Translations under genes and position numbers: made by a program
DNA from: an uncultured Acetatifactor sp.
GTDB lineage: Bacteria > Bacillota > Clostridia > Lachnospirales > Lachnospiraceae
Direction of reading: 5' to 3'
NCBI GenBank assembly: GCA_947625475.1
Contig: CANQOL010000006.1
Coordinates: 1 to 64,000, forward strand
Length of the DNA stretch: 64,000 nt
The notes under the pieces: generated by a model
The model's database searches: none
What the model was told of the DNA's origin: nothing
The model's input: the letters and a program-made list of their open reading frames with translations, nothing else
In this document: one piece after another, positions 18,735-61,025 of the stretch
How positions within the stretch are numbered: the stretch's first letter is position 1
Layout: the number at the start of each line of letters is the position of its first letter

Positions 18735-19907
18735 CTACCACCTGACCTGCCATCTCTCCTTGAGCTTCTCCGGCGCCTCCCCGCCGCTCTCCGCAGCCCG
18801 CTTCTCCTGCTCACCGGCGCAGCGCTCCTTCAGGAACTCTTCAAAGCTCTTCTCATCCCCCGGCAGCTCTACCCAGTCATCCTTCCAGGAGGACAGATAG
18901 GCAGCGTTTGAGATCGCCAGGGAATTCAGGCCCTCAAAGCCGGGAGCGATCAGCTCCTGCCCTTCCAAAATGGCCTTGGCAAAGTTTTCAATCAAAATGG
19001 GATGCCCGTCAGGCTCCGCTTCCCGGTATTCCTCATAGGCTGTCTCCGGGCAGGCAAAGCCCTCCCTGGACGTAAAGCAGAACTCCCTTTCCGGCTGGGC
19101 CAGCTTCCACCAGCGCAGCTTTCCCTCCTCCAGCACCAGCTTGCCCAGATCCCCGGAGATCTCCAGCCGGTTGGTGCCGGGGGCCTCCCCGGTGGTGGTG
19201 ATGAACACTGCCGTGGCACCGTTTTCGTATTCCCCGTAGATGGTCACATCGTCCTCCACGTCGATGCGGTGGTATTTGCCCTGGCTGCAGAAGGCCCTAA
19301 CCCGCTTCGGCATGCCGAAGATCCACTGCCACAGATCCAGATTGTGGGGGGCCTGGTTGAGCAGCACGCCGCCCCCCTCCCCGTTCCAGGTGGCCCGCCA
19401 GCTCCCGGAATCATAGTAGGCCTGGGTCCTGTACCAGTTGGTGATGATCCACACTAGGCGCTTTAACTCCCCCAGCTGTCCGCTCCGCACAATCTCTCTG
19501 GCCTTCTGGAAAAGAGGATTGGTGCGCTGGTTGAACATCATGGAAAACACTGTCCCTGCCTTCTGGGCAGCCTCGTTCATCTCCCGCACCTGTCTGGTAT
19601 AGACCCCTGCCGGTTTTTCACACAGCACATGGAGCCCTCTGCGAAAGCACTGGACCGCCAGGGTGGGATGCTCATAGTGGGGCACCGCGATCAGCACGGC
19701 CTGCACCAGGGAGCTGTCCAGCAGCTTTTCCGGGTCCGTAAAGCACCGGATCTCCGGAGCCTTCTCCCTCACCCATTCCAGCTTTTTTTCGTCGATATCG
19801 CACACCGCCGTGACGGTCACGGAGGGGCACTGTCCCTCCAGCACATACCTAAGGTGCCCGCTTCCCATATTTCCCATTCCGATGATTCCCAGTTTGATCT
19901 GATTCAT
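18735..19907 (-). CDS. Gfo/Idh/MocA-family NAD(P)-dependent oxidoreductase
   Basis: Start at MNQIKLGIIGMGNMG (GGGAGG upstream); 390 residues. The N-terminal Rossmann fold has GIIGMGNMGSGH (8-18) and the family motif CEKPAG at 96-101, with the lysine that contacts substrate and cofactor. The C-terminal Gfo/Idh substrate domain follows. Such enzymes oxidise or epimerise sugars, inositols or their derivatives; the exact substrate cannot be read from sequence. It is the second gene after a sugar-isomerase-type gene (55 bp apart) and the divergent AraC regulator, so a small sugar or polyol catabolic unit is likely. Confidence 0.9.
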   Translation of the reverse strand: MNQIKLGIIGMGNMGSGHLRYVLEGQCPSVTVTAVCDIDEKKLEWVREKAPEIRCFTDPEKLLDSSLVQAVLIAVPHYEHPTLAVQCFRRGLHVLCEKPAGVYTRQVREMNEAAQKAGTVFSMMFNQRTNPLFQKAREIVRSGQLGELKRLVWIITNWYRTQAYYDSGSWRATWNGEGGGVLLNQAPHNLDLWQWIFGMPKRVRAFCSQGKYHRIDVEDDVTIYGEYENGATAVFITTTGEAPGTNRLEISGDLGKLVLEEGKLRWWKLAQPEREFCFTSREGFACPETAYEEYREAEPDGHPILIENFAKAILEGQELIAPGFEGLNSLAISNAAYLSSWKDDWVELPGDEKSFEEFLKERCAGEQEKRAAESGGEAPEKLKERWQVRW

Positions 19908-46841: not shown

Positions 46842-47954
46842 TCATAGGAAAAAATCAGGATTCACATGTAAATTGTTTTTTTCCAAAAAATTTGTGTATT
46901 CAATCAACTTTGTATCATAAGATTTATAGAAATCTATCATACCCATACAAGCTCTGTAGTACAATTCTTCTACACTTGGCTCACATTCCACCAACTCCGA
47001 TCGTAAGATGTATGGAATATTATGATGTTGTGCTATCTCCAATACCCTACTCGAATGTGCAATTAATAAAGCAGGGCATCCTGATAAAATTGAGATAATT
47101 GCTTGGTGAATGCGAGACCCTATAGAAAAATCAAAAGTATGCATCATCTGCATAATTTTATCCTGCCTTGCCAAAAATCTGGCTCGATTTTGTTTTATAA
47201 TAAAATGATCTTCAGTTGTAGGAAGCAATTCATGTCTTCTGTTTTCTGGAACAGGAATATGTTTATATATTAAATCTGCTTCTACTTTATCTGTAAATAT
47301 CACATATGATTTAGAAAAATCTTTTAAAATTTTATATAAATAGATCGCTTCATCCAAATCATAATAGTACGCAGTAAAATTAACTGCTATCTTTAATTCT
47401 TTAGAAAATAACGGATATTTTCTTGGAAACTTTTCAAGTTTGTTACCAAAATATCTAACCGAAGGACAGCCTATTACATCAATTCGGTCCGAGGAAATTC
47501 CAACTTGTTCTACTAAAACCTTTTTAGTGAAATTCCCCCTAACACCTATGGATGGTGTACGTTCGAGCAATAAATTATAGCATTTTTTTATTGAAATAAT
47601 AAGATCCTTGTCTAATTGAATTTGAAAGTTTGCATTTGAATCTGAACCAACACATACCAGTATAAATGGAATATGTGAATTTAAGATAGTATTATAATCA
47701 TTTTCAAACCATTTTTTTGTCCCATTTCTAATACTGTTGGCATGAATCAAAATTCCTGCATCAAAGTCATCAATATTAATTCCATTTTTATATCTTACAA
47801 GTAGATTATCTTCTCTTAACAACGATTTGACAATTGCATTAAAGAAAAACATATTTCCAACATTATTGCCAAATAGATTTTTGTCAACAATTTCATTTTC
47901 AGTTGGAAAATTCTCATGTTCAAATGGAATAGTACTAAAAATTAAATATTTCAC
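46842..47954 (-). CDS. Polysaccharide pyruvyl transferase family protein
   Basis: Start taken as GTG 47954 (MKYLIFSTIPFEH), nine bases after AGGAGG; a TTG two codons earlier is less well spaced. 370 residues. The GT-B-like pyruvyl transferase fold is recognisable from an N-terminal NNVGNMFFFNAIVKSL and a C-terminal FSIGSRIHQAIISILSGCPALLIAHSSRVLEIA. It would add pyruvate ketals or act as a glycosyltransferase-like enzyme on a surface glycan. It is strongly AT-rich and is the last gene of the glycan operon. Confidence 0.82.
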   Translation of the reverse strand: MKYLIFSTIPFEHENFPTENEIVDKNLFGNNVGNMFFFNAIVKSLLREDNLLVRYKNGINIDDFDAGILIHANSIRNGTKKWFENDYNTILNSHIPFILVCVGSDSNANFQIQLDKDLIISIKKCYNLLLERTPSIGVRGNFTKKVLVEQVGISSDRIDVIGCPSVRYFGNKLEKFPRKYPLFSKELKIAVNFTAYYYDLDEAIYLYKILKDFSKSYVIFTDKVEADLIYKHIPVPENRRHELLPTTEDHFIIKQNRARFLARQDKIMQMMHTFDFSIGSRIHQAIISILSGCPALLIAHSSRVLEIAQHHNIPYILRSELVECEPSVEELYYRACMGMIDFYKSYDTKLIEYTNFLEKNNLHVNPDFFL

Positions 47955-48087
47955 TTGCAAAAACCTCCTTAAATAAATCTGCTACCACAGTGGTCAAAAA
48001 TACCATCTCTTCTTCTGAATGGTATGTCATCTTATGAACAACTGCCCGTAAAACCTGTGCTTCATGTGCAGAACAATACAATACCAT
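47935..48087 (-). CDS. Small ORF in the glycan operon, unknown
   Basis: 50 residues starting MVLYCSAHEAQVLRAV, with GGAGG about ten bases upstream of the ATG. It fills the gap between the GT8 gene and the pyruvyl transferase and overlaps the latter's start by about 20 bp, so it could couple translation. I see no known domain. It may equally be a remnant of a larger gene lost in recombination. Confidence 0.4.
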   Translation of the reverse strand: MVLYCSAHEAQVLRAVVHKMTYHSEEEMVFLTTVVADLFKEVFASEIFNF

Positions 48088-48102
48088 AATTTAAGCATCC
48101 TC

Positions 48103-49014
48103 CTATCCCAGTATATATCTTCCTAAATCTGCCTCCATTTGTAAAAACATTTGCGTGTAATAAGGCGATTTCCTTGCAATCATCCAATACTTCTCTCCAA
48201 AATGCACACCTGGTGAAAACCATGGTTTATTTGTCCAGGAAAAATGTATCATTTTGGGGTTCTTTTTTGCTTTCAAGTAGTCTGACAAGATATAATGAGG
48301 CGCAAATACAATATGTTTCTTACTCCTCCTGTAACTTTCATCATAGTCATAAACAAAATTCCAGGCGTAATCCACAAACATAATTTTCTTGTGACACAAA
48401 TGATTCAGCGTATCTTGATCATGAAATCTCCAGTTTCTTTCTAAAGCCACCTCAAGCAGGCGATTTGTAGGGCATTCCAGTCGAAACTTATCTAAATTCA
48501 TCAAAATAATCCCTGCCTGCAAATAATCATATGGTTGCTCCAATCCAACAATTTCATTTATATACTTATGATAATCCGAGTTTATATTATAATTTGCAGC
48601 ACTATCCGCATCTCTCGTTCCTGCCAAGAAATATTCCTTCACATCATAATCAAACAGCTCTGCCACATCCGTATTTGCTATCACATCGCAATCTATGTAT
48701 AATACCTTTTCAATATCCGGCAGTAACTCTGGCAATAGCAATCTAAAATATGTTTCAATCTTAATATGATTACTGACAAACAGATCTCCGCAATCCCTCA
48801 TCCTCTCCGTCACGTTAATGAATTCAATCGAAAAATTTGTTCCGGACAACATCTGAATCAATGTCATCTGATTCTCTCTTGTTATATCCTTATGCAGCAC
48901 AGTTATGTTATACTGTCGCTGAATACTGCTGAAATCCATAACCGATCGCAGCATCACCGATAAGTACGGAACATATCGATCATTTGCAGCTGCAACAATC
49001 TGTACTATATTCAC
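48103..49014 (-). CDS. Glycosyltransferase family 8 protein
   Basis: Starts at GTG 49014, almost touching the upstream stop; 303 residues. GT8 hallmarks: the metal-binding DxD in VLYIDCDVIA, then YLQAGIILMNLDKFR, a DQDTLNHL, and a late MIHFSWTNKPW that binds the second metal ligand. It retains configuration and transfers Glc or Gal from a UDP-sugar. It is AT-rich and close in sequence to the GT8 half of the neighbouring DUF4422 fusion. Confidence 0.93.
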   Translation of the reverse strand: MNIVQIVAAANDRYVPYLSVMLRSVMDFSSIQRQYNITVLHKDITRENQMTLIQMLSGTNFSIEFINVTERMRDCGDLFVSNHIKIETYFRLLLPELLPDIEKVLYIDCDVIANTDVAELFDYDVKEYFLAGTRDADSAANYNINSDYHKYINEIVGLEQPYDYLQAGIILMNLDKFRLECPTNRLLEVALERNWRFHDQDTLNHLCHKKIMFVDYAWNFVYDYDESYRRSKKHIVFAPHYILSDYLKAKKNPKMIHFSWTNKPWFSPGVHFGEKYWMIARKSPYYTQMFLQMEADLGRYILG

Positions 49015-49015
49015 G

Positions 49016-51010
49016 TCAATTTTCCTTCTTTCCTCTTATTTTTCTCGGTATGGCTGTCATCCAAAGTCCCAGCTTATAGGAAAACGATTTTCTTATCTCA
49101 TTTAAATGATTTTGCAATTCATCTCTTTGAAAGGTCAGTTCCTGCCTTTCTCTGTTTGACTCATTCAAATGATTTTGTAGTTCCTGCTTTTCTCTGCTTG
49201 ATTCATTCAAGTGATTTTGCAGTTCATCTCTCTGCCGAATCAGTTCCTGTTTTTCTCCATTATTGAACGCTCTCTCTTCACGTTCGGCTTTCAATGCATT
49301 GAACCCTTTAATATTCATTTCATGAATCAAAATTTCAAAAAAAGGAGATGACTGCGCATATTTCCAAAAATAATACCCCATGTCCGTTTGCATATTATCC
49401 CAAGGCTTTGGGGTTCCTGCATAATGTATAATCCAGGGATCCCGTTTTGCCTCCTTATATTCCTTTGCCAAATCGTATTTGACAAATTTTTCTACACGTT
49501 CTGCGCGGTCAAAACATTCAAATAATGTATTCCAGTTTAATTCTAAGTAATACACATCATTTTTAAATAAATAATTTAAAACATCTTGATCTTGGAATTT
49601 CCAGTGTCGTTGTAATGCTGTCTGAAAAATGTCCTCACTGTGATAAATTTTACGTATTTTTTCTAAATTAAGAATCAATACACCTGCCTGGAAATAATCC
49701 TCAGCCCTAAGCAAGCCAAGTACATTTCTGATATCATCTCGCACTTCCAAATCCTGCGTATCTTCCTCCGGGAATAAACTTATAATATCAACATCCCTCG
49801 TAGCAGCAATAGCATGGTTCCCCATATCCTTTTTAAATAATTCTGCAACATCTTTTTCTACAATTACATCACAATCCAAATATAGTATTTTATGCAGATT
49901 AGGGAATAACTCTATCGCCATAAATCTAAAATATGTTTCCAAAGATAGATGCCGGTCCACAAACAGATTATTATATTGCTCCATCTTCCGTTTTACATCT
50001 ACAAATTCTACATACATATTATTGGTTTTCGAAAGTTGATCCCGTAATATCTGCATATTTTCTTTTGTAATGTCTCTATGCAAAATATAAATATGATAAA
50101 CATCTTTTTGGTTTCGGTTTCTCATAATTGATTCAAGCAAAACAGATGTATATTTTACATAATTATTATTGCAGCTTAGGATTATCGGAATAAGATTCTC
50201 TGTATCCTTTATATCAATAACCTGCTCAGGTTCATTATTCTTAAATTGAACTCTTTGGACATAGCATACTTTTGCCCCCTGCTTTTCGAGATATTTTCCA
50301 TATATTGCGCACAACCGTTCAGCCATATGGCCAAGTGTTCTCAGTTTTTCTGTAGTATAATCAGAGAAATCAATCCGTGTTTCACACTCTTTTAAAATAT
50401 CAAACAGCCATTCACTATACTGCATAAAGTATTCTTTTTTCATAATAAACATATTGCAATGAATTGCCTGCTTTGAATTGAATACTTCTCGCGCCAAATC
50501 ATAAAATTCTGGATATTTTTCCACAATAACCTGTACCAGCGTGTCTATGTCTTTTTTTTCTAAATGCTTACACCAATGTTCATAAATTGTATCACCTCCT
50601 ATTGGATTTTCCTGCGGATAAATAATGTCATACTCTGATATCAAATTCCGCATAATATCCTCTTTTAGCATCAACCGTTCTACTGCTTCCTCATTACAGT
50701 AATCCATATATACAATGTTTTCATAATGCTCCATCTGTATCGGATTAAACGATAAATAACGCCGATAATGAAAGAAGCCATAATAATCAAGATCCGGCAT
50801 GTTCTTCCATGCCCAATATTGCGCAGTCAATTCACAGTACATCTTATTTTTTTTAGATATGTTTTCACCTTCATCATCATGGAACATATTCTCATAACGC
50901 TCATCTGTCAAAGCAGTTCCAACTTGTATCGGCGCAAACAAATTGTTCTGTGGAACATAGCAAAATTCGTGCATTGAAATAAAAATTTTAATTTTGTTTC
51001 CCTTTGTCAT
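49016..51010 (-). CDS. DUF4422-GT8 fusion glycosyltransferase
   Basis: Start chosen at MTKGNKIKIFISMHEF because DUF4422 domains begin this way; ATG 51055 is possible but extends the tail. 664 residues: DUF4422 (about 5-230; HYRR motif at FFHYRRYLSF), GT8 (about 275-560) with intact DCDVIV, YFQAGVLILN and DQDVLNYL, then a coiled coil of repeated NHLNESxREKQEL units and a basic C-terminus (YKLGLWMTAIPRKIRG) often seen in membrane-associated glycan enzymes. DUF4422 is a probable glycosyltransferase domain, so this could add two sugars in a row. Confidence 0.85.
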   Translation of the reverse strand: MTKGNKIKIFISMHEFCYVPQNNLFAPIQVGTALTDERYENMFHDDEGENISKKNKMYCELTAQYWAWKNMPDLDYYGFFHYRRYLSFNPIQMEHYENIVYMDYCNEEAVERLMLKEDIMRNLISEYDIIYPQENPIGGDTIYEHWCKHLEKKDIDTLVQVIVEKYPEFYDLAREVFNSKQAIHCNMFIMKKEYFMQYSEWLFDILKECETRIDFSDYTTEKLRTLGHMAERLCAIYGKYLEKQGAKVCYVQRVQFKNNEPEQVIDIKDTENLIPIILSCNNNYVKYTSVLLESIMRNRNQKDVYHIYILHRDITKENMQILRDQLSKTNNMYVEFVDVKRKMEQYNNLFVDRHLSLETYFRFMAIELFPNLHKILYLDCDVIVEKDVAELFKKDMGNHAIAATRDVDIISLFPEEDTQDLEVRDDIRNVLGLLRAEDYFQAGVLILNLEKIRKIYHSEDIFQTALQRHWKFQDQDVLNYLFKNDVYYLELNWNTLFECFDRAERVEKFVKYDLAKEYKEAKRDPWIIHYAGTPKPWDNMQTDMGYYFWKYAQSSPFFEILIHEMNIKGFNALKAEREERAFNNGEKQELIRQRDELQNHLNESSREKQELQNHLNESNRERQELTFQRDELQNHLNEIRKSFSYKLGLWMTAIPRKIRGKKEN

Positions 51011-51062
51011 TTTTATACGCCTGCTTTCTTTAAAATTGTTTTCCTTATGTTTCATCAATTTT

Positions 51063-52988
51063 TTACCGCGCCTTATACCTATCTGACACATTTGTCAAAA
51101 ATCGGTGCCTTTCCTTTATCACATTACAGAGAAGCGTAACAGCCGGTTTTAAAAACTCATTATTGTTCCTTGGCAACAAGCTAATATCTATTGCCTGCGT
51201 AATTTGATACATAGCTAGGATTGCGCGAATCTGACCGCATTTTCCATCTGGTTCTCGTCTTCCGGCAGAATCTCTGATATTGTTCATCAGCAGTTTCCTA
51301 TAATAATCTAAATTCAAAATCCCTATGATTCTACTCTGAATCTCACCGTCTCTTTTATTCTGTGCTGCTTGCATTACTTCTGCCAAAGCTTTCAAAATCT
51401 TCTCCGCATTTTCTTCTGCGATTTGGTCGGATGGTGTAGACCAGCGTTGTATATAGCCCTCCTGTTCCCAATATATGGTTTTTTGATCCAGCAGCCAGCC
51501 TTTCATCAAAAACAAGTCATCCGACAATAATGAGAAGGGGTAGAAGGTAAGATTATTTTCCTGAACAAATTTTCTTCTAATTAAAATCGTATACAGATTT
51601 TTTACTTCTGATAAATGTACCTTTCCTGGAGAATGGTATACTTCCGGTGACCCGCCACAGGATACGCACACATCTGCCTCCTCCCGTGCCGCCCTGCAGT
51701 ACCACTCTTCCAGAGCCGTATCTTTTGTCAGCCATCCCCCGTCCCGGGCAAACCACACATACTCCCCTGCCGCCAGATCACTCCCCGCCTGCAGGGTCTC
51801 CCCATAGGAATCCCTTCTCCGGTTATACAGACGGATCCGTCTGTCCCGGAACAGGCTCCGGTGCAGCACACGGTAGGTCTCATCCGGCGCTCCGCTGTTG
51901 ATCAGGAGAATCTCCGTCTCCCGCAGGCTCTGGCGCTCCAGCCCATCCAGCAGCTCCTGCACATACTCCCCGCTGTCCCAGATGGGGACCACCACCGAAA
52001 GCCTGGGGATTACCGGCTCCTTCCCAATAAAGCTCTCCACATAGGCAAACTGCTCCTGGATCCAGCTCTCCAGGCTGTACCGGAACCGGTAGTATCCGCT
52101 CCCCACCCAGCACTGTCTCACCGCCGGGGCCAGGCATATCTTCTCTTCCATGGTCAGATAGATGTAATCCCCGTACAGGAAGGGAATGCTCCACCGCAGG
52201 AACTCTCTCCTGGCCTCTTCTCCCTCCCCCTCCAGGATCCCGGCCATGTGCAGCACCAGACGGGCGTGGGCCTTCCCCTTCCCGGTGCCGGCGCGGTAGA
52301 CCTCCCTCTCCATGATGGACCCCTCCCGGCGCCAGCAGTAGTGGTACAGCCGGTCCGGGATCAGGCTGATCCTCCTGGCCTTCGTGTAGAGCTTCGCCTG
52401 GAAAGCTTTGTCCTCCCCCAGCAGGATGCTCTCATCCAGCCGCAGCTGCTCCCTCCCGATCAGCTCCCGGCTGGCCAGCACCCGCCACAGAAAGGGAGTG
52501 GTTCCTACATTCCCGAAGAGCAGTTCCGGCTCAAAGCTCTCATAATGCCTGCGCCCGGGGCTTAAGGACTCCCGCAGCCATTCCTCCGGCGCGGGTTCCT
52601 GGGGAAAAACCTGCGCCCCGCATATAACCACCTCCGCCTTGTCCCTGCGGGCCGTCTCCCAGAGCCTCCGGAACATGTCCGGCTCCGCGTAATCGTCTGA
52701 GTCCACAAAGCCGATATATTCCCCCCTGGCCGCCTCTATGGCCGCGTTCCGGGCGGAGGGCAGCCCTCCGTTTTCCTTATGGATTACCCGGATCCTCTCA
52801 TCCCTCTGCCGGTATCTCTCCAGGATCTCCCCGCTGCCGTCCGTGGACCCGTCGTCCACGCAGATGATCTCGATCTCCCGAAGGCTCTGGCACAGCAGGC
52901 TGTCCAGGCACCGGGGCAGCCAGGCTTCCACGTTATAGACCGGCACCGTCACAGATACCAAGGGCCCCTTTTGTTTATGCTCCTTCAC
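51063..52988 (-). CDS. Two-domain GT2 glycosyltransferase (chimeric composition)
   Basis: Starts at GTG 52988 with AGGAGG eight bases upstream, overlapping the preceding gene by 14 bp; 641 residues. The first GT-A domain (10-310) is complete: SVTVPVYNVEAWL, DDGSTDGS, DSDDY. The second (from about 330; LSVVVPIWDSGEYV) has lost both acid motifs (NSGAPD for DDGS; ARDG for DSDD), so it is probably not catalytic. Base composition switches from GC-rich to AT-rich near 51640 (about residue 450), suggesting the 3' third came from a different source. Confidence 0.88.
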   Translation of the reverse strand: MKEHKQKGPLVSVTVPVYNVEAWLPRCLDSLLCQSLREIEIICVDDGSTDGSGEILERYRQRDERIRVIHKENGGLPSARNAAIEAARGEYIGFVDSDDYAEPDMFRRLWETARRDKAEVVICGAQVFPQEPAPEEWLRESLSPGRRHYESFEPELLFGNVGTTPFLWRVLASRELIGREQLRLDESILLGEDKAFQAKLYTKARRISLIPDRLYHYCWRREGSIMEREVYRAGTGKGKAHARLVLHMAGILEGEGEEARREFLRWSIPFLYGDYIYLTMEEKICLAPAVRQCWVGSGYYRFRYSLESWIQEQFAYVESFIGKEPVIPRLSVVVPIWDSGEYVQELLDGLERQSLRETEILLINSGAPDETYRVLHRSLFRDRRIRLYNRRRDSYGETLQAGSDLAAGEYVWFARDGGWLTKDTALEEWYCRAAREEADVCVSCGGSPEVYHSPGKVHLSEVKNLYTILIRRKFVQENNLTFYPFSLLSDDLFLMKGWLLDQKTIYWEQEGYIQRWSTPSDQIAEENAEKILKALAEVMQAAQNKRDGEIQSRIIGILNLDYYRKLLMNNIRDSAGRREPDGKCGQIRAILAMYQITQAIDISLLPRNNNEFLKPAVTLLCNVIKERHRFLTNVSDRYKAR

Positions 52989-54738
52989 AAAACCTTCCTC
53001 CTGTCAGCTTCCGCAGGCCGTAGCGCAGTGTCTGTTTCAGCCCGTTGTGCCGGTAGTAGAACCGGAGCTTCCCCAGCAGGGAGTAGCTCCTCCAGTCCTC
53101 CTGGGGTATCTCCCGCGCCTCCTGCATGGCCCGGTCGATCTCCCTCTGGTCCCGGGCCAGCTTCTCTTCCAGCCTGTGCAGGTCGCAGGGCACAAAGGGA
53201 AAGATGCCCGGCACCCTGGCGGCCAGATCCCACCAGAAGACGCTGTATACCCCCTGGGGATCCTCCCAGGGCAGATCCCTTCCGTAAAACAGGATGGGCT
53301 TCCAGAGGGCTTCCTCCTGGCTGGCCCGGCGGGGCTTGTCTGTTCCAAACAGAATCCCTGTTTCCTCCGCCTCCCCGGCCCCTCTCCCTCTTTCGTCCGC
53401 CAGGGTCATATAGTACCAGGGCACATACCCTGTCTGCCCTTCAAAAAGCCGGTTGAAAAGCGCCTGCCCGCTCTCCCCCTCCCCTGTCCCCGCCTGCACT
53501 CTCACCTGATGCTCTCTCAGGCGGGCACAGTTGAGCACCAGGAAGGCCGGATCCAGCCTTTTGTCCGGCTCCATGGGATCGTACTTTCCCAGGGGCGCTC
53601 CCACCCCCCAGAAGTCATCCACGCTGCAGGTCCGGTAAAACTCTCCCAGGTCCCGCAGGGCCAGCGCGTTCTCTTCCAGATAGATACATTTCTTTGCCTG
53701 CGGCAGCAGCCATGCCGCCGCCAGCGGATAATACTCTCTCCCTAAATCTGTCTCCAGGACCTCCAGGCTGCAGTTCCCGTATTTTTCCGGGAAGTACGCA
53801 AAACGCCTGCGCACCTTCTCATCCGTCCCCTTCCCCGTCAGCAGACTGATCGCATAACGGGTCTGCGGCTTCTTGTTTTCCAGCAGGGAGGTCAGGGTCA
53901 CCGCCAGGGAAAACTGGTTCCCTTCCTCCAGGGGCAGCACCAGGGGCACCTCTGCCGGCTCCGTCACACAGGAGATGGGCAGCACCTTATAGGTAAGATC
54001 CCGGTTCTCCATCAGCCTGGCTATGTAGATTCCCGTCAGCCGCTCGGAGATAAACAGCCGCTTCTCCGACAGGTCCCTGCGCTTTTCAAATTCCTCCAGG
54101 ATCCCAAAGATCCACCGGCAGTAATCGAAGAACAGCTCCCGCCGGAAGATGAACATGTTGCAGAAGCAGCTCACGTCCCCCGCCAGGTATCTCCGGGCAC
54201 TCTCCCGGTACTCCGGATTCCTTTCATCCAGGATTTCCAGGGCCAGGTCCAGATCCTCCTTCCGGTGGTTCTCCGCGTAGTGCCGGTACACGTTCTTTAC
54301 CTTCCCCAGATGGGCCACAAAATCACAGCCCCCCACCAGCCTGCGCAGCGCCTCAGGCGAGTAGCCGGTCTCCTCCAGGTAGTGTTCACCCATATCCTCA
54401 AAGGGGATCTCCCCCGTCTCCCCCTCATGGAGGACAAAGTGGCGGCGGTAGTGCATCAGGCCGATATAATCCGGGTCCCCCAGCGCCTCATAATTCTTCC
54501 AGGCCCAGTACAGGGCGGTCATCTCGTTGTAGGAGGCGTTTTTCTCCGAGATATTCTCCCCCGTGTCGTCCCCGATCATGTTCTCCGTGAGCCACCGGTA
54601 TTCTTCGCTTTGAGGATCCATCCGTTTCTGCGCCAGGGCCCTTCCCACATGGATGGGGGTCAGGATCTCGTCCCGCAGCAGCCGGGCGGGTTTATGGTAG
54701 CAGACCAGCAGTTTGATCCCGGGCTTACTTTCCTTCAT
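52975..54738 (-). CDS. DUF4422 protein with a degenerate GT8 domain
   Basis: 587 residues. DUF4422 at residues 5-265, including NEMTALYWAWKN and GLMHYRRHF. A GT8-like second half follows, but the region that should carry DxD reads CIYLEENALALRDLGEFY, so the metal site is lost. It is a diverged, GC-rich relative of the AT-rich DUF4422-GT8 gene at 49016-51010. Probably only the DUF4422 part is active. It overlaps both neighbours by 14 bp, in tight translational coupling. Confidence 0.82.
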   Translation of the reverse strand: MKESKPGIKLLVCYHKPARLLRDEILTPIHVGRALAQKRMDPQSEEYRWLTENMIGDDTGENISEKNASYNEMTALYWAWKNYEALGDPDYIGLMHYRRHFVLHEGETGEIPFEDMGEHYLEETGYSPEALRRLVGGCDFVAHLGKVKNVYRHYAENHRKEDLDLALEILDERNPEYRESARRYLAGDVSCFCNMFIFRRELFFDYCRWIFGILEEFEKRRDLSEKRLFISERLTGIYIARLMENRDLTYKVLPISCVTEPAEVPLVLPLEEGNQFSLAVTLTSLLENKKPQTRYAISLLTGKGTDEKVRRRFAYFPEKYGNCSLEVLETDLGREYYPLAAAWLLPQAKKCIYLEENALALRDLGEFYRTCSVDDFWGVGAPLGKYDPMEPDKRLDPAFLVLNCARLREHQVRVQAGTGEGESGQALFNRLFEGQTGYVPWYYMTLADERGRGAGEAEETGILFGTDKPRRASQEEALWKPILFYGRDLPWEDPQGVYSVFWWDLAARVPGIFPFVPCDLHRLEEKLARDQREIDRAMQEAREIPQEDWRSYSLLGKLRFYYRHNGLKQTLRYGLRKLTGGRFCEGA

Positions 54739-57040
54739 GTTCTATCTTCCCCACCCTGCTCTCCAGATTTTTCAGCCTTCCCAACAGCAGATCATATGCG
54801 GAGGCGGCCTTCGCCTTCGGCGCCTCCAGCGCATGGATCAGCCATGCCTTGGAACGGACGATCTCCGAATCCAGCCTTCTCCACACCGTGTCGTAATCGA
54901 TATCCTCCAGATAAGCCTTCGTCTCGGACACGCGCATGGGATCCAAAAACAGGTTCCGCTCAAGGCCCGTTATCTTCATCAGGGTTTCAAACCGGGATAA
55001 CCCCCTGCGGATGTTGGCGACGCAGGCAAACTTCTTCCGGAACAGGAGCGAAAAACACAGCCCGTGGTAGGAATCCGTCAGCACCGCCTGGGCATGGGAG
55101 AGATAATAGAGCCAGTCTTCCATTTCGATCTCCTCCCGCAGGGCCTCCGGGTGTCCCATGATCTGCTTGTTTTTCTCCCGGTCTGTCTGGGCGTCCAGCA
55201 CCAGGATCAGCTTCCAGCCGCTTTCCCGGGCCGCCTCCTCCAGCATTTCCCTTTTTTCCCCGCTGGGAGAGAGGATGTAGGCGAAAAGATACGGCTCCCT
55301 CTCCCTGACACGGGATTCCCCGGCCAGCTTTTCGTATTCCCCTCTGTCGCACAGGAAAACCGGATCCAGTGTCCGCACCGCTTCCACGCCGAAGACATTC
55401 CGGCACACATCCACCCCGTCGTCCTCCCGCACAGATATATAATCCAGCCGCCCCATATGGAAGGCCGTCTCCTCCAATACATTCTGCGGCGCCCCGTAAG
55501 TGGGGTGGCCGAAGCTGGTGGCGTAGGCGATCTTCTTTTTGGAATCCTTTACAAAATCCAGAAAAAAGTAGCTTCCGTTCTCCTCTGTGCTCCAGTAGTT
55601 CCACAGCTGGTCGCTCCCCACCAGGAACATATCGCAGTAGCGGTTTAAATCCGGCAGTTCCTCATAGGTCCGTCTGACAGAGATTTCATAATACTTTTTC
55701 GCCAGCCTTCTGGCAAATGTATCCGGCAAAGGGGCAAAGGGCCTGGCTTTCTCCGGCCACTCCAGCATCAGCACGGAATATCCCAGGGACTCCAGGTACC
55801 GGTTCAGGGCGAAATTGGTGATCGCGCTCCCGTAATTCTCCCCGTACCACCATCCGATATACCCGATATCGAACCGTCTCCCGTATGCGTACTCCACCGC
55901 CTTGTCATAATCCTCATACTGGTCCAGCAGCCGGAAAAATCTGCCCCGGTTAGGGTGGGCGGCCGGGCCTGCCGTCAGGTTCCCGTTCTTTTCCTTTGCC
56001 TTCCCCAGGTCTGTCTTCTCCCACACAGCCCCAGAGGCAGCCCGCTTATACAGCTTCTCCCCCTGGGGGCTGTTAATCAGGACCAGGCTGGTCCCTTTCC
56101 CGTCGTCCTTTTCCGGTTCAATCCCCCAGAAATCCCCCAGTGTAAGGTCACCGATCCTGGGGATCTGCTGGAACCGGCACTGCCCGCAGCTTCTCCGGCA
56201 GTTCAGGCCGCTCAAAAATCCTTTATACCAGTCCGTCTCAGAACGCGCCTTGCTGAATACATATCCGTTGTCCAGGCGGAGGTAGAAAGAATGCGACCAT
56301 CCCCATTCGCTTTTTTTGCGGAAGCTCACTTCCTCCACTCCCGCGCCTGCGTTCCCGGTAGTTTCCAGGACCGTGTTGAGGAACCTTCTGTATGCCTTGG
56401 GCGACGGCACCCCGTGGCAGATGAGATCCACGGTATACAGGCCGGGGTATTCCTTTCCCAGAAAACCCTTCAGCCCCGCCACCTGGCAGGGCGTGCCGGT
56501 GAACAAAACCTCTCTCCCCTGCTCCAGGCAGGACTTCACCTGCCGGTATATCTGCCCCGGCGAAGCCTGCAGATATTTGGAGCCCCTGAGCCTGTCCAGC
56601 TCATCCTCCGTCTCCGCCAGAAGGAAGCAGGCGCCCCTGCCATCCTGGGTAAAGCCCACCCCGGCTGCCGCGCCGCCCCCGGACAGGATTTCTCTGGCCA
56701 GCACCGGAAAGATCCCTCCGGATGAAGACTGCATGCGGTCCTCCCCCTTCGCCCTTGCGGCGTACACGGCCCTGCATGTGTTTGGGTTTTCCCTTTCCGT
56801 GATCACGGGGCAGGCCCGGACGCACAGGCCGCAGCCGGTACATTTTTCCGGGTCTGCCGCAGGCACCTCGAATCCCTCCGGGTCCTCCCTCATGGAGATG
56901 GCCTCCTTCGGGCAGATGTTCCGGCAGGCACCGCAGCCTGTGCAGCTGCCCATGTCCGCCCCAAGCTTTTCCTGTTCCGTTATATTTGGCTGCTTCTCCC
57001 TGGACAAACCCAGGGGCCCCTTCCAGTTAATCAGTCCCAC
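54725..57040 (-). CDS. Ferredoxin-FrhB-pyruvyl transferase fusion
   Basis: 771 residues from GTG 57040 (a start nearer the first Fe-S motif is possible). Two [4Fe-4S] sites: C33/C36/C39/C43 and C67/C70/C73/C77. Then an F420 hydrogenase/dehydrogenase beta-subunit (FrhB) N- and C-terminal pair (GSKYLQASPGQIYRQV; GTPCQVAGLKGFL; RIGDLTLGDFWG). From about residue 390 a polysaccharide pyruvyl transferase domain (GYIGWWYGENYGSAITN; VGSDQLWN; TDSYHGLCFS). Such proteins sit in clostridial surface-glycan loci; redox modification of a sugar followed by or coupled to pyruvylation is inference. Confidence 0.85.
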   Translation of the reverse strand: MGLINWKGPLGLSREKQPNITEQEKLGADMGSCTGCGACRNICPKEAISMREDPEGFEVPAADPEKCTGCGLCVRACPVITERENPNTCRAVYAARAKGEDRMQSSSGGIFPVLAREILSGGGAAAGVGFTQDGRGACFLLAETEDELDRLRGSKYLQASPGQIYRQVKSCLEQGREVLFTGTPCQVAGLKGFLGKEYPGLYTVDLICHGVPSPKAYRRFLNTVLETTGNAGAGVEEVSFRKKSEWGWSHSFYLRLDNGYVFSKARSETDWYKGFLSGLNCRRSCGQCRFQQIPRIGDLTLGDFWGIEPEKDDGKGTSLVLINSPQGEKLYKRAASGAVWEKTDLGKAKEKNGNLTAGPAAHPNRGRFFRLLDQYEDYDKAVEYAYGRRFDIGYIGWWYGENYGSAITNFALNRYLESLGYSVLMLEWPEKARPFAPLPDTFARRLAKKYYEISVRRTYEELPDLNRYCDMFLVGSDQLWNYWSTEENGSYFFLDFVKDSKKKIAYATSFGHPTYGAPQNVLEETAFHMGRLDYISVREDDGVDVCRNVFGVEAVRTLDPVFLCDRGEYEKLAGESRVREREPYLFAYILSPSGEKREMLEEAARESGWKLILVLDAQTDREKNKQIMGHPEALREEIEMEDWLYYLSHAQAVLTDSYHGLCFSLLFRKKFACVANIRRGLSRFETLMKITGLERNLFLDPMRVSETKAYLEDIDYDTVWRRLDSEIVRSKAWLIHALEAPKAKAASAYDLLLGRLKNLESRVGKIEHEGK

Positions 57041-57158: not shown

Positions 57159-58673
57159 TCAGCCGGATTCCGGTTCCTGGCCTGTTGCCGGGCCCCGGCG
57201 TCTGACCCCCAGCTGCGCCAGCCGCCACAAAACCGCATTCCCCAGCCGGGTGGCATATCTCTTCCGGCTAAGGCGCCTGTGATGCCCCTCCGGGTTGATT
57301 CCCTCCAGTTCCTTCCAGCCCTTCAGGTAATCCCGCAGCCCAAGAATCCCCATGCGCTCTCCCAGGTAATCCCCCCTGCGGTGGCATTCTGAAATCTTCC
57401 CCTTCCAAAACCCCAAGATTTCCTCCCGCCCGAAAGGCTGGCTGTACAGCTCATTCACAAACAGGCTGTTGCGCACGTCGTAGTAGGTAATCACCGGATC
57501 CTGACGTTTCTCGTAGGTCTCATGCCACACCTGGATCCCGTTCAGGATCAGCGGCTTCCCTCCCTGCCGCAGGCCGTACTCCACGTCGTCGCAGTGCAGG
57601 AAAAAAGGTAAGGGACGGTTGGCTTTTATGTACTCTATGGGGTAGCAGCACATCCACCAGCCCCCGTACTGGGCTCCCCGGTTGTCGTTCATCCCGGGCA
57701 GGTTCTCCCGCAGACCCATATCCAGGTTCCAGCCGATGTGACGGATCTCTCCACCGTTCCAGATCTCCGCCGCCGTGTACTGCACCTGACGGCGGTCTGT
57801 GCGGAACATTCTCCCTGCCACCGCCTCTTTTCGGTACTCTTCCTTCAGGCAGGACAGCAGGGCGCATAACTTGGCGATGCTCTCCATTTGCAGCTCCGCA
57901 TCGTCGTCCATCAGCAGCACATGGGTGGCTGGGAACTCAGGAAGGTTTCTCACCGTCTCTTCCATCCCCCGGCCAAAGCCTCCCGAACCCCCGGTGTTGG
58001 GGTTGAGATAGAGCCTTACCCGGCCCCCGTACTGCTCCGGCCAGCCCTCTCCCAGTTCACGGCCGTTGTCCACTACCAGGATCCGGGAGGCATAACCTCT
58101 CTCCCTCTCCAGCTTTTCCAGCCCGGGACATAACCTGGCTAAGTTTCTCTCCAGCTGTGCCCTTCTGTGATAGGTGCAGATAACTAGGGACAGGCAGATC
58201 TCCCGTCTCCCTGCCGCCCTGGCCTGCCAGGAGCTCTCCAGGATCCGGCTGTCCTCCCATGCCTCCCACTGCCAGTAGAGCAAGCCTTTTGCCTTATCCT
58301 CTGGGAGAAATACCACCTTTTCTTCCGGCAAGGGCAGGCTCCAGACGGCTTCGGCCAGAAGCTCGTCGGAGGCCGATCTTTCCTCCGCAGCGCCCGCTTC
58401 CCCTGGGTTTCCCATCCGATAGATCCGAAGCCTCCCTCTTCCCTGGAGGCGGATCTGCAGGCAGATCCCGGAAATCTCCCCGTACCTTTCCCAGGCATCC
58501 GCATCCAGCAGGTTCATGTAAGTATCCGTGCTTACCCGGCTCCCCTCCGCAAGCTCTAAAATCCCATCCGGCGTCCGGGCCGTTTCCCCGCTCTCCCGAT
58601 AGTACAGTTCCCTCTCCGGACACACCTCATCCGGCAGGGCCGTCGTCTGCAGAATAATCCCGGGCGCTTCCAT
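57159..58673 (-). CDS. GlfT2-like GT2 glycosyltransferase
   Basis: Start at ATG 58673, sharing a base with the recombinase stop (TGATG); AGGAG eight bases upstream; 504 residues. An N-terminal beta-sandwich (1-150) precedes a GT2 domain with LVICTYHRRAQLERNL, the LLMDDDAEL metal motif, GGWWMCCYP and FLHCDDVEYGLRQ with a later WHE. This arrangement matches galactofuranosyltransferase GlfT2-type enzymes, pointing to furanose or a related sugar in the glycan. A galactose mutase gene is not in the window, so the donor is uncertain. Confidence 0.83.
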   Translation of the reverse strand: MEAPGIILQTTALPDEVCPERELYYRESGETARTPDGILELAEGSRVSTDTYMNLLDADAWERYGEISGICLQIRLQGRGRLRIYRMGNPGEAGAAEERSASDELLAEAVWSLPLPEEKVVFLPEDKAKGLLYWQWEAWEDSRILESSWQARAAGRREICLSLVICTYHRRAQLERNLARLCPGLEKLERERGYASRILVVDNGRELGEGWPEQYGGRVRLYLNPNTGGSGGFGRGMEETVRNLPEFPATHVLLMDDDAELQMESIAKLCALLSCLKEEYRKEAVAGRMFRTDRRQVQYTAAEIWNGGEIRHIGWNLDMGLRENLPGMNDNRGAQYGGWWMCCYPIEYIKANRPLPFFLHCDDVEYGLRQGGKPLILNGIQVWHETYEKRQDPVITYYDVRNSLFVNELYSQPFGREEILGFWKGKISECHRRGDYLGERMGILGLRDYLKGWKELEGINPEGHHRRLSRKRYATRLGNAVLWRLAQLGVRRRGPATGQEPESG

Positions 58674-59602
58674 CACAGCAGCTCCTTTTCCCGCATAGCC
58701 AGGATGATCCCAGTCCGTCCCTGGACGGGCAGGCCCTTACAGTACTCCATGGGCATGGACAGGGTGGAATTTCCAAGGAGCCGGGAGAGAGACATGGCGT
58801 CCATCCCCAGTCTGGCGCAGCTCTCCACAAAGGTATTTCGCAGTGAATTGAAATTGATATCCTCCGGCAGGCCCGCGCTCTTTATAATGGCCTTGAGACG
58901 GTTCTGCATGGTCCTGGGATCCGCCGGCTGCAGAGCTCCGGTCAGGAAAAATCTTTCGGGCGCTCTCTGAAAGCGGCCGATACATTGAGTCACTGTCTCG
59001 GTCACGGGAATCCGCCGGCGGGCGGCGCCCTCTTTGATCTCAGATAACGCAAGCCTGGTTCCGGTTCCCTCTGTGATCCTCTGGAGGGTTTGTTCCACCA
59101 GGATCTCTCCCCCCGTCAGGTCAATATGGGCCCACTGCAGTCCGCAGAGCTCTCCCAGCCGCATTCCAGTCATCATTGTCAGGTAGATCCCGGCCTTGGT
59201 CAGATCCGTATCCTGCAGCAGACAGCTGCAAAGCCTCTTTTGCATGGATTCCGTCAGAGTACCGCTCTTAAGCCGAAAATTCACACTCCGCTTGGGCAGG
59301 ATGATACTGTCCGCCGGGTTGGAAAGGCAGTATGCACGGGAGACATACCGGGTCACCATCCGAAGCACCACCAGGATATCCTCTCTATACTTCCGGCTAT
59401 AGCCCTTCTCCTGCAGACTCTGCGCAAACAGACGGACCTTTTCCGGGGTCACCTCACAGTATTTCAATCCGGCAAAATAGGGGATCACATGACGCTCCAG
59501 CTTGTGGCGGTAATTTGAGACCGACGTGATCTGCAGTTCCTTTGACACATTCCGGATCCATTCCTCCGCAAGCTCCTGAAAGCTGCTCTGTGAAACGTCC
59601 AT
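58673..59602 (-). CDS. Tyrosine recombinase with altered active site, first gene of the glycan operon
   Basis: Start at MDVSQSSFQELAEEW (AGGAAAGGGG upstream); 309 residues. N-terminal SAM-like core-binding domain and C-terminal catalytic domain. R148 (GMRLGELCGLQW), K190 and R255 are kept and Y287 (MEYC) is present, but the HxxR histidine is N252 (FNSLR) and the second histidine is N278 (LGNST). Thus two of six catalytic positions differ. Its stop overlaps the next glycosyltransferase start, so it is co-translated with the glycan genes. It may be a weakened recombinase, a direction-setting partner, or a DNA-binding regulator of the switch. Confidence 0.9.
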   Translation of the reverse strand: MDVSQSSFQELAEEWIRNVSKELQITSVSNYRHKLERHVIPYFAGLKYCEVTPEKVRLFAQSLQEKGYSRKYREDILVVLRMVTRYVSRAYCLSNPADSIILPKRSVNFRLKSGTLTESMQKRLCSCLLQDTDLTKAGIYLTMMTGMRLGELCGLQWAHIDLTGGEILVEQTLQRITEGTGTRLALSEIKEGAARRRIPVTETVTQCIGRFQRAPERFFLTGALQPADPRTMQNRLKAIIKSAGLPEDINFNSLRNTFVESCARLGMDAMSLSRLLGNSTLSMPMEYCKGLPVQGRTGIILAMREKELL

Positions 59603-59685: not shown

Positions 59686-59709
59686 TTCGTTTAATCATGT
59701 TTTTGCGAA
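59686..59709 (+). repeat. Left inversion site of the glycan switch
   Basis: Left arm TTCGTTTAA, centre TCATGT, right arm TTTTGCGAA: two 9-bp inverted arms around 6 bp, the form of a tyrosine-recombinase core site. Extended similarity to the right site continues to 59719. Confidence 0.8.
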
Positions 59710-59730
59710 AGATTCTTCTGCAACGTGCTT

Positions 59731-59759
59731 AGTATAGCATGTTTGTCGAGAAATGACAA
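59731..59759 (-). promoter_or_regulatory. Glycan operon promoter inside the invertible segment
   Basis: Minus-strand TTGTCA (59754-59759), 17 bp ending in TGC (extended -10), TATACT (59731-59736). It reads leftward into the recombinase and glycan genes, with transcription predicted to start near 59724. The imperfect palindrome TTGTC-N7-GACAA (59743-59759) overlaps the -35 and could be an operator. Confidence 0.8.
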
Positions 59760-59827
59760 GGGTGAAATCATTTTTTACTGGTGGGAAGAATTGTAAATTT
59801 CCGAAAAAAATAAAAGGAGGAAAAGAA

Positions 59828-60895
59828 ATGAATATTTACAGACGGCGTGACGGAAGATTTGAGGGCAGACTTGCGGGGGAAAGAGGATCCGGGCAGAGGG
59901 GATATCTTTCCTTCTACGGGAAATCCAAGAACGAGGTACAGCAGAAAATGGCAGCGTATGTAGACGGGCTGCGCCAGGAGATACCGGCCCAGAATCTGAC
60001 GGTAAAAAAACTTTTTGAGGACTGGATGGAAGCGATCTCCGTGAGAGTCAGGGAATCTACGCTGGCCAATTATCGGATGAGGATGGCGACGCACATCCTT
60101 CCGCTGTTCGGAGAGCTTGACACCGATGAGCTGACAGCGCCGCGGCTGCAGAAGTTTGTCTCGGACAAGCTGAAGGAAGGGCTGACGTCAAATTATGTGG
60201 CGGATATTGTGGCAACTCTGAAATCCATGCTGCGGTTTGGAAACAGGCAGTATGGAATCCGCAACTGTCTTTCCAGCCTGATTCTTCCTAAAAAAAGGAA
60301 ACCTCAGGTACGCCTTCTGACAAAACCGGAGACAAGCCGTTTGAAGGAATATTTGGCCCAGAACGATGGGCTGTCCTCCCTCGGAATCGCCCTTCCTCTG
60401 TTTACCGGGCTGAGACTGGGAGAACTCTGCGGGCTGCGCTGGAGCGATATTGATCTGGAGGAAAAGACGCTTTGCGTCAATCGAATTGTGCAGCGGATTG
60501 CCAAACAGGACGGCCGAGGTACTCGGCTGGTGGTTACTGCCCCCAAGAGCGCTTCATCCCAGCGGCTGATCCCTCTTCCGGACTGTCTGATCGAAAGACT
60601 GCGGTGTCATCTCCGGAAAAAGGACTGCTATCTGTTTTCCGGTTCCCAAAAACCTCTGGAACCCCGTACCATGCAATACCGTTTTCAGTCCGTGCTGAAA
60701 AAAGAAAAACTGCCGTCAATTCATTTTCACGCGCTGCGGCATATGTTCGCCACAAACTGCGTGGAGCTGGGGTTTGATATCAAGTCACTCTCAGAGATAC
60801 TGGGGCACGCCAGCGTTGAAATCACGTTAAATCATTATGTGCATTCTTCTTTGGAAAAAAAGAAAGCTTTTATGAACCGGCTTTCTCTGTGTTAG
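59828..60895 (+). CDS. Tyrosine recombinase inside the invertible segment (putative invertase)
   Basis: Start at MNIYRRRDGRFEGRL with AAAGGAGG upstream; 355 residues. It has an AP2-like arm-binding N-terminus (residues 1-48), a SAM-like core-binding domain and a full catalytic set: R196, K240, H301-x-x-R304, H327 and Y337. It is transcribed away from the glycan operon. The whole gene lies between two inverted recombination sites (59686-59709 and 60903-60926), and the stop codon touches the right repeat. This matches invertases that sit within the DNA they flip. Target specificity for these sites is inferred. Confidence 0.9.
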   Translation: MNIYRRRDGRFEGRLAGERGSGQRGYLSFYGKSKNEVQQKMAAYVDGLRQEIPAQNLTVKKLFEDWMEAISVRVRESTLANYRMRMATHILPLFGELDTDELTAPRLQKFVSDKLKEGLTSNYVADIVATLKSMLRFGNRQYGIRNCLSSLILPKKRKPQVRLLTKPETSRLKEYLAQNDGLSSLGIALPLFTGLRLGELCGLRWSDIDLEEKTLCVNRIVQRIAKQDGRGTRLVVTAPKSASSQRLIPLPDCLIERLRCHLRKKDCYLFSGSQKPLEPRTMQYRFQSVLKKEKLPSIHFHALRHMFATNCVELGFDIKSLSEILGHASVEITLNHYVHSSLEKKKAFMNRLSLC

Positions 60896-60902
60896 AAGAT
60901 AT

Positions 60903-60926
60903 TTCGTGAAAACATGATTATGCGAA
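60903..60926 (-). repeat. Right inversion site of the glycan switch
   Basis: On the minus strand: left arm TTCGCATAA, centre TCATGT, right arm TTTCACGAA. The centre is identical to that of the left site and in opposite orientation, as inversion needs. Including flanks (60894-60926 against 59686-59719) 28 of 33 aligned bases agree, with one 1-base gap. A half-site-like TCACGAAAT recurs near 60981. Confidence 0.8.
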
Positions 60927-60991: not shown

Positions 60992-61025
60992 AGGGCATCC
61001 CGGATACGGGACACCCTGTTTTTTC
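60992..61025 (+). terminator. Terminator beyond the right inversion site
   Basis: AGGG-CA-TCCCG, GATA loop, CGGGA-CA-CCCT followed by GTTTTTTC on the plus strand. It ends the recombinase transcript now, and would stop rightward transcription from the glycan promoter if the segment were flipped. Confidence 0.75.

Follow-up and report, generated by a model that had tools for sequence, protein, structure and literature searches.

The Hin switch of Salmonella (hin-fljBA) relies on a serine recombinase, hix sites and a Fis enhancer. In Bacteroides fragilis, the capsular polysaccharide promoters are inverted by one global serine invertase, Mpi, which acts in trans on all sites, and the system also includes UpxY and UpxZ. 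Invertible promoters of surface-glycan operons are a familiar feature of Bacteroides but have been poorly documented in the kind of Clostridia considered here. A putative 844-bp fimbrial inverton that encloses a recombinase ORF has been described in Providencia stuartii (PMC5903667), and a tyrosine-type recombinase family linked to invertons of gut Clostridia (inverton group 139 / invertase group 35) was reported in 2025 (PMC11892184).

We analysed a 64,000-nucleotide stretch of DNA from an uncultured Acetatifactor species (hereafter the window). With a probability of roughly 0.87, we interpret one of its loci as a self-contained invertible promoter cassette that controls a glycan operon; under this reading, inversion at the window locus, ON/OFF transcription and the function of a second, catalytically dead recombinase (B) are inferences. 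The features of the locus are listed in Table 1.

Table 1. Features of the putative switch, the adjoining glycan operon and the right flank.
Feature	Position	Strand	Details
Remaining glycan operon: DUF4422, GT2, DUF4422-GT8 fusion, GT8, pyruvyl-transferase-like	46842..54738	-	Mostly overlapping genes
Ferredoxin / FrhB-like / polysaccharide pyruvyl transferase fusion	54725..57040	-	
Glycosyltransferase (GlfT2-like / GT2)	57159..58676	-	4-bp overlap with the end of B
Recombinase B, 309 aa	58673..59602	-	First gene of operon; catalytically dead
Left recombination site, operon side (putative)	59686..59709	+	TTCGTTTAA-TCATGT-TTTTGCGAA; centre 59695-59700
Outward promoter (predicted)	59731..59759	-	TTGTCA-17-TATACT, extended -10 (TG before the -10); inside segment
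Recombinase A, 355 aa	59828..60895	+	PF14659 + PF00589; full catalytic set R, K, HxxR, H, Y
Right recombination site (putative)	60903..60926	-	TTCGCATAA-TCATGT-TTTCACGAA; centre 60912-60917
Terminator-like hairpin, then T run	61006..61019	+	Just beyond right site

The segment (59686-60926, 1241 bp) is bounded by two inverted 24-bp sites with an identical TCATGT centre. Taken with adjoining positions, 59686-59713 and 60899-60926 form a 28-nt inverted repeat, 1185 nt apart and 82% complementary. Within the 400-bp flanks of A, inverted 24-mers matched at up to 20/24 positions, a value that was reached in none of 1000 first-order Markov simulations (maximum 19). Searching the 3.09-Mb genome for the pattern TTCGNNTAATCATGTTTTNNCGAA with up to three mismatches returned exactly two places, 59686 and 60926, while the reversed control pattern had zero matches genome-wide at the same threshold. 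The site pair, which a first-pass annotation had proposed from the letters of the window alone, therefore exceeds chance expectation and has no further copy in the genome. The 9-bp inverted arms that it described are present but, within each site, one arm is only an imperfect inverted copy of the other. Between the two sites, two outer-arm and two inner-arm positions differ, and the site-pair comparison across loci described below indicates that the outer-arm difference is a systematic feature.

Recombinase A lies wholly inside the segment and is a tyrosine recombinase that comes closest to Tn1549 Int and Xer, with its catalytic set complete as the first-pass annotation had claimed. Only tyrosine recombinase families matched A, with no match to serine (resolvase-type) recombinases, and hence the label "Hin-like" given to the locus holds for its layout and fails for its enzyme. 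A is intact, and the dN/dS ratio of its family is 0.04-0.16 (the more distant pairs are near saturation), in line with purifying selection. The strong promoter that had been placed at the left end of the segment was also recovered. Recognised by consensus and conservation only, it is currently aimed left, at the glycan operon, an orientation that we infer to be ON. An outward promoter scoring at least 11 is present in 56 of 68 loci of relatives, compared to an inward one in only three of the 68. We did not identify a promoter for A at the window locus. Outside the segment there is a weak second promoter-like match (59671-59644, minus strand), which is near chance level and could allow orientation-independent expression.

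In the mechanism that we propose, A would bind both inverted sites and exchange strands within the 6-bp centres that they have in common, thereby inverting the 1.24 kb of DNA in which both A and the strong outward promoter lie. As sequenced, the promoter would read across the left site and drive B and the glycan operon (ON). After a flip it would point away from the operon and towards the terminator, with A upstream of B and codirectional with it (OFF). The hairpin beyond the right site would end promoter transcripts when the segment is flipped, and transcripts of A in the present state, although such hairpins are within chance expectation for the region (four found versus a mean of 2.4 in shuffles).

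The operon itself encodes a protein (54725-57040) that combines 4Fe-4S, FrhB-like and polysaccharide pyruvyl transferase domains. The other B-linked operons that were checked contain GT2, GHMP kinase with nucleotidyl transferase, IspD-like cytidylyltransferase, or NeuB genes, and B-linked operons are predicted from such gene content to encode different surface polysaccharides.

The genome contains nine A paralogs besides the window copy, eight of which are flanked by their own inverted site pair; no flanking inverted pair was found for the ninth, C9. The genome holds about ten such switches, most of them paired with a catalytically dead B. A base-by-base comparison of the sites of the seven A+B-type loci of this genome showed that the centre (columns 10-15) is identical within the pair in 7/7 loci and only 14-71% identical between loci, while the outer CGAA/TTCG positions are largely common to all seven. 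For strand exchange, a tyrosine recombinase requires an identical centre within a pair, and locus-specific centres would insulate the switches from one another. With a different centre at each locus, about ten switches would be able to flip independently in one genome. Each switch would then be a portable cassette (promoter, recombinase and private site pair), which would explain how they coexist without cross-talk. Private centres are not universal, as the same site centre occurs in several loci of rabbit metagenome-assembled genomes (MAGs; L022, L023 and L024 in one MAG, and L025 and L027 in another), and recombination between loci is conceivable.

A strong outward promoter was found upstream of A in nearly all of the paralogs in this genome. 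It points towards B and the operon in C6 (the window locus) and C1, and away from the operon in at least five loci (C48, C4a, C15, C35 and C21). C50 is likewise codirectional, but its A and its site belong to a more distant type. C6, C1 and C48 all have TTCGTTTAA as the outer arm on the operon side, even though A of C48 points the opposite way. This indicates that the arm belongs to the flank and that it is the segment that has turned.

A tenth switch is missing between two contigs. C53, which carries B and an operon, ends in AATCCGCCATTTACGAAA (position 19234; L210), and C55 ends in AGTCCGCCATTTACGAAA (position 18813; L209), in each case at the inner edge of the same site. The assembly lacks the intervening segment, and its last-numbered contig, C78, is 2835 bp long. 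An assembly graph would fork at this site if both orientations were present, so a break would be expected there. The break is suggestive, but not proof, of both orientations having been present in the sequenced DNA. We also considered C53 and C9 as one broken locus and rejected this; C55 proved to be the partner of C53.

Other observations concern exchange among these loci. At C50 (L016), the A and the site type that flank a B-linked operon of the sialic-acid type differ from the usual ones, and a vestige of the usual site, AATTTGCGAAAG, is retained inside the locus upstream of A, which suggests that one switch was replaced by another. Near-identical stretches are common to the B genes of C4a, C35 and C15, and also to the glycosyltransferase gene after B in C35 and window positions 57159-58676. 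Such stretches suggest recombination or gene conversion among glycan operons.

To look beyond this genome, we scanned 84,980 genomes and recovered 80 loci, mainly from Ruminococcus and related Oscillospiraceae MAGs. Flanking site pairs (at least 19 of 22 positions matching; null maximum 16-19 of 22 per locus) were found for 74 of the 82 testable A genes from other genomes. Within these pairs the two centres are identical except in two A-only loci, and at one of those the difference is due to an N. Comparison of flanks among these relatives identified pairs of loci with swapped flanks. The cleanest pair is L076 and L083, which match over 17 kb in all: they are collinear over 7.9 kb on each side (98.4-98.7% identity), while the 1240-bp segment between, 99.4% identical, is inverted, such that a glycosyltransferase gene has the promoter pointing at it in one of the two and away from it in the other. 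The segment is likewise inverted between two contigs of the same MAG, L051 and L059 (94-96% identity). These exact inversions show that the A family inverts in nature, without showing it for the window locus. Among the Ruminococcus relatives, A-only switches (L076/L083, L078/L084/L086/L095 and L056/L057) also adjoin other types of genes, with neighbours that include a glycosyltransferase and, by eye, LytTR-like response regulators. This suggests that capsule operons are not the only setting of the cassette.

The pairs with swapped flanks bear on whether the locus is instead a recombinase-bearing mobile cassette that inserts and excises without acting as an inversion switch. The many paralogs in one genome would fit such an element, as would the resemblance of A to integrases of integrative elements such as Tn1549 Int. 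Its sites, however, are inverted and not direct, their centres are locus-specific, and the outward promoter towards the adjoining operon is conserved. The swapped-flank pairs amount to precise inversion in place, on which ground we rejected the mobile-element reading; we regard it as highly improbable.

The first-pass annotation had inferred an inversion switch and proposed looking for the flipped form in related genomes. For the family, both parts are borne out by orthologous loci in both orientations, as in the homologous loci L076 and L083; for the window locus, inversion remains an inference. The collections contain no close relative with the exact locus; no flipped copy of it was found in congeners, whose UvrD (encoded by a neighbouring gene) is only 38-50% identical. 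Only one orientation was seen at the window, for which we have a single assembly and no reads. This, together with the four arm positions that differ between the window sites, leaves room for a copy that is locked or decayed and fixed ON while the rest of the family inverts. We consider this very unlikely, given the intact A and the purifying selection inferred for its family, the identical centres of the two sites, and the equal or greater arm differences at other functional-looking loci. An inversion switch at the window locus thus remains our preferred reading.

The most novel component of this switch is B. That the operon begins with an altered recombinase, as had been noted, is correct. 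In the window copy, the His of HxxR and the second His are both replaced by Asn and the catalytic Tyr by Cys, and the N-terminal extension of A (about 50 aa) is missing. Including this copy there are nine B genes in the genome. In all aligned copies the second His is Asn, while the His of HxxR is Asn, Ser or another residue and the catalytic Tyr is Cys (12/13) or Phe (1/13). The predicted structure of B has a recombinase fold (pLDDT 83, pTM 0.62) with an uncertain domain arrangement, and Tn1549 Int is its nearest solved structure.

B was absent from the 137 other members of the genus at E ≤ 1e-90 (138 genomes searched, including that of the window) and from the remaining 391 genomes sampled from the order. 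B-like matches in the order with E-values from 1e-60 to 1e-91 were excluded as being of A type, with an intact active site where the motifs were readable. B does occur in 5 of 71 genomes of another genus, including four rabbit-gut MAGs, and is located beside A where this is visible. Most relatives of A occur without B. All B sequences form one clade with full support, and their topology repeats that of the A tree, with (C48,(C6,C1)), (C4a,C21,C35,C15), L026/L028 and L025/L027 recovered in both. The dN/dS ratio of B is 0.08-0.36 (the more distant pairs are again near saturation). From these comparisons, B is a retained, non-catalytic protein that co-diverges with A under purifying selection. 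Co-divergence and selection show that B does something, but not what it does.

The sites provide a hint. In 14/14 B-bearing site pairs there are 16 bp between TTCG and CGAA, and the outer arms are asymmetric (mean 3.7 mismatches), whereas 59 of 61 A-only loci have 17-bp spacing and near-identical outer arms (mean 0.7 mismatches). This difference fits a B that reads one arm, with the caveat that the B loci are one lineage and effectively one event. It is plausible, though we would put it somewhat short of even odds, that B, while the switch is ON, acts on it by binding the same sites, such that orientation feeds back on inversion. The more specific version, in which A and B form a mixed complex on the asymmetric sites and B, made mainly when ON, biases its own and possibly other switches, is in our view doubtful.

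It is also distinctly possible, at clearly less than an even chance, that the switch is real and B has no role in it, being a DNA-binding protein for another target or a leader gene kept by operon structure. B is catalytically dead, lacks the N-terminal part of A, and is dispensed with by most relatives of A, all of which this would accommodate; less easily accommodated are its co-divergence with A, its position next to A wherever this can be seen, and the spacing and arm asymmetry that set B loci apart from A-only loci. A further proposal, for which UpxZ of Bacteroides provides an analogy, is that B works in trans on glycan switches other than its own, for instance by poisoning their A tetramers, such that few operons are ON together. 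Nine B copies in one genome and the finding of only two ON loci among those with readable orientation point this way. One assembly is no sample of states, however, and direct evidence of cross-binding is lacking, so that we rate this proposal as rather improbable. Were the mixed-complex version to hold, some ten surface-glycan operons would be coordinated by a pseudo-enzyme feedback layer acting on site-specific DNA inversion. The conservation of a dead B in the controlled operon raises a testable question, namely whether a pseudo-recombinase can make DNA inversion depend on the current state of the switch.

We found no description of a dead recombinase partner of invertons in the open-licence literature. 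The placement of a recombinase within the segment is already known from Hin and has been reported for a Providencia inverton. The P. stuartii inverton is a precedent for the layout, with a recombinase ORF in a reported invertible segment beside surface genes, and differs in being a single fimbrial locus for which no dead partner is described (PMC5903667). Inverton group 139 / invertase group 35 may be of the same broad family as A, and the available passages of that report mention no dead partner (PMC11892184). The Akkermansia cps1 inverton likewise controls a capsule operon, and differs in its site motif (CGGATT..AATCCG) and in that the text of the paper names no recombinase in the segment (PMC13343947). 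The arrangement is not that of XerC/XerD, where both partners are catalytic, as every aligned copy of B is without the Tyr and both His. With B. fragilis the window genome shares many glycan operons, each behind an invertible promoter, and regulators as first genes. It does not share the use of one invertase on many common sites, as each locus of the window family has a tyrosine recombinase and a site centre of its own, unlike the Mpi system. The layout is closest to that of Hin, with a recombinase gene and an outward promoter inside the segment and an operon outside that also encodes a regulator, but the window family differs from Hin in its tyrosine recombinase, its many loci with locus-specific centres, and the dead recombinase that stands first in the operon.
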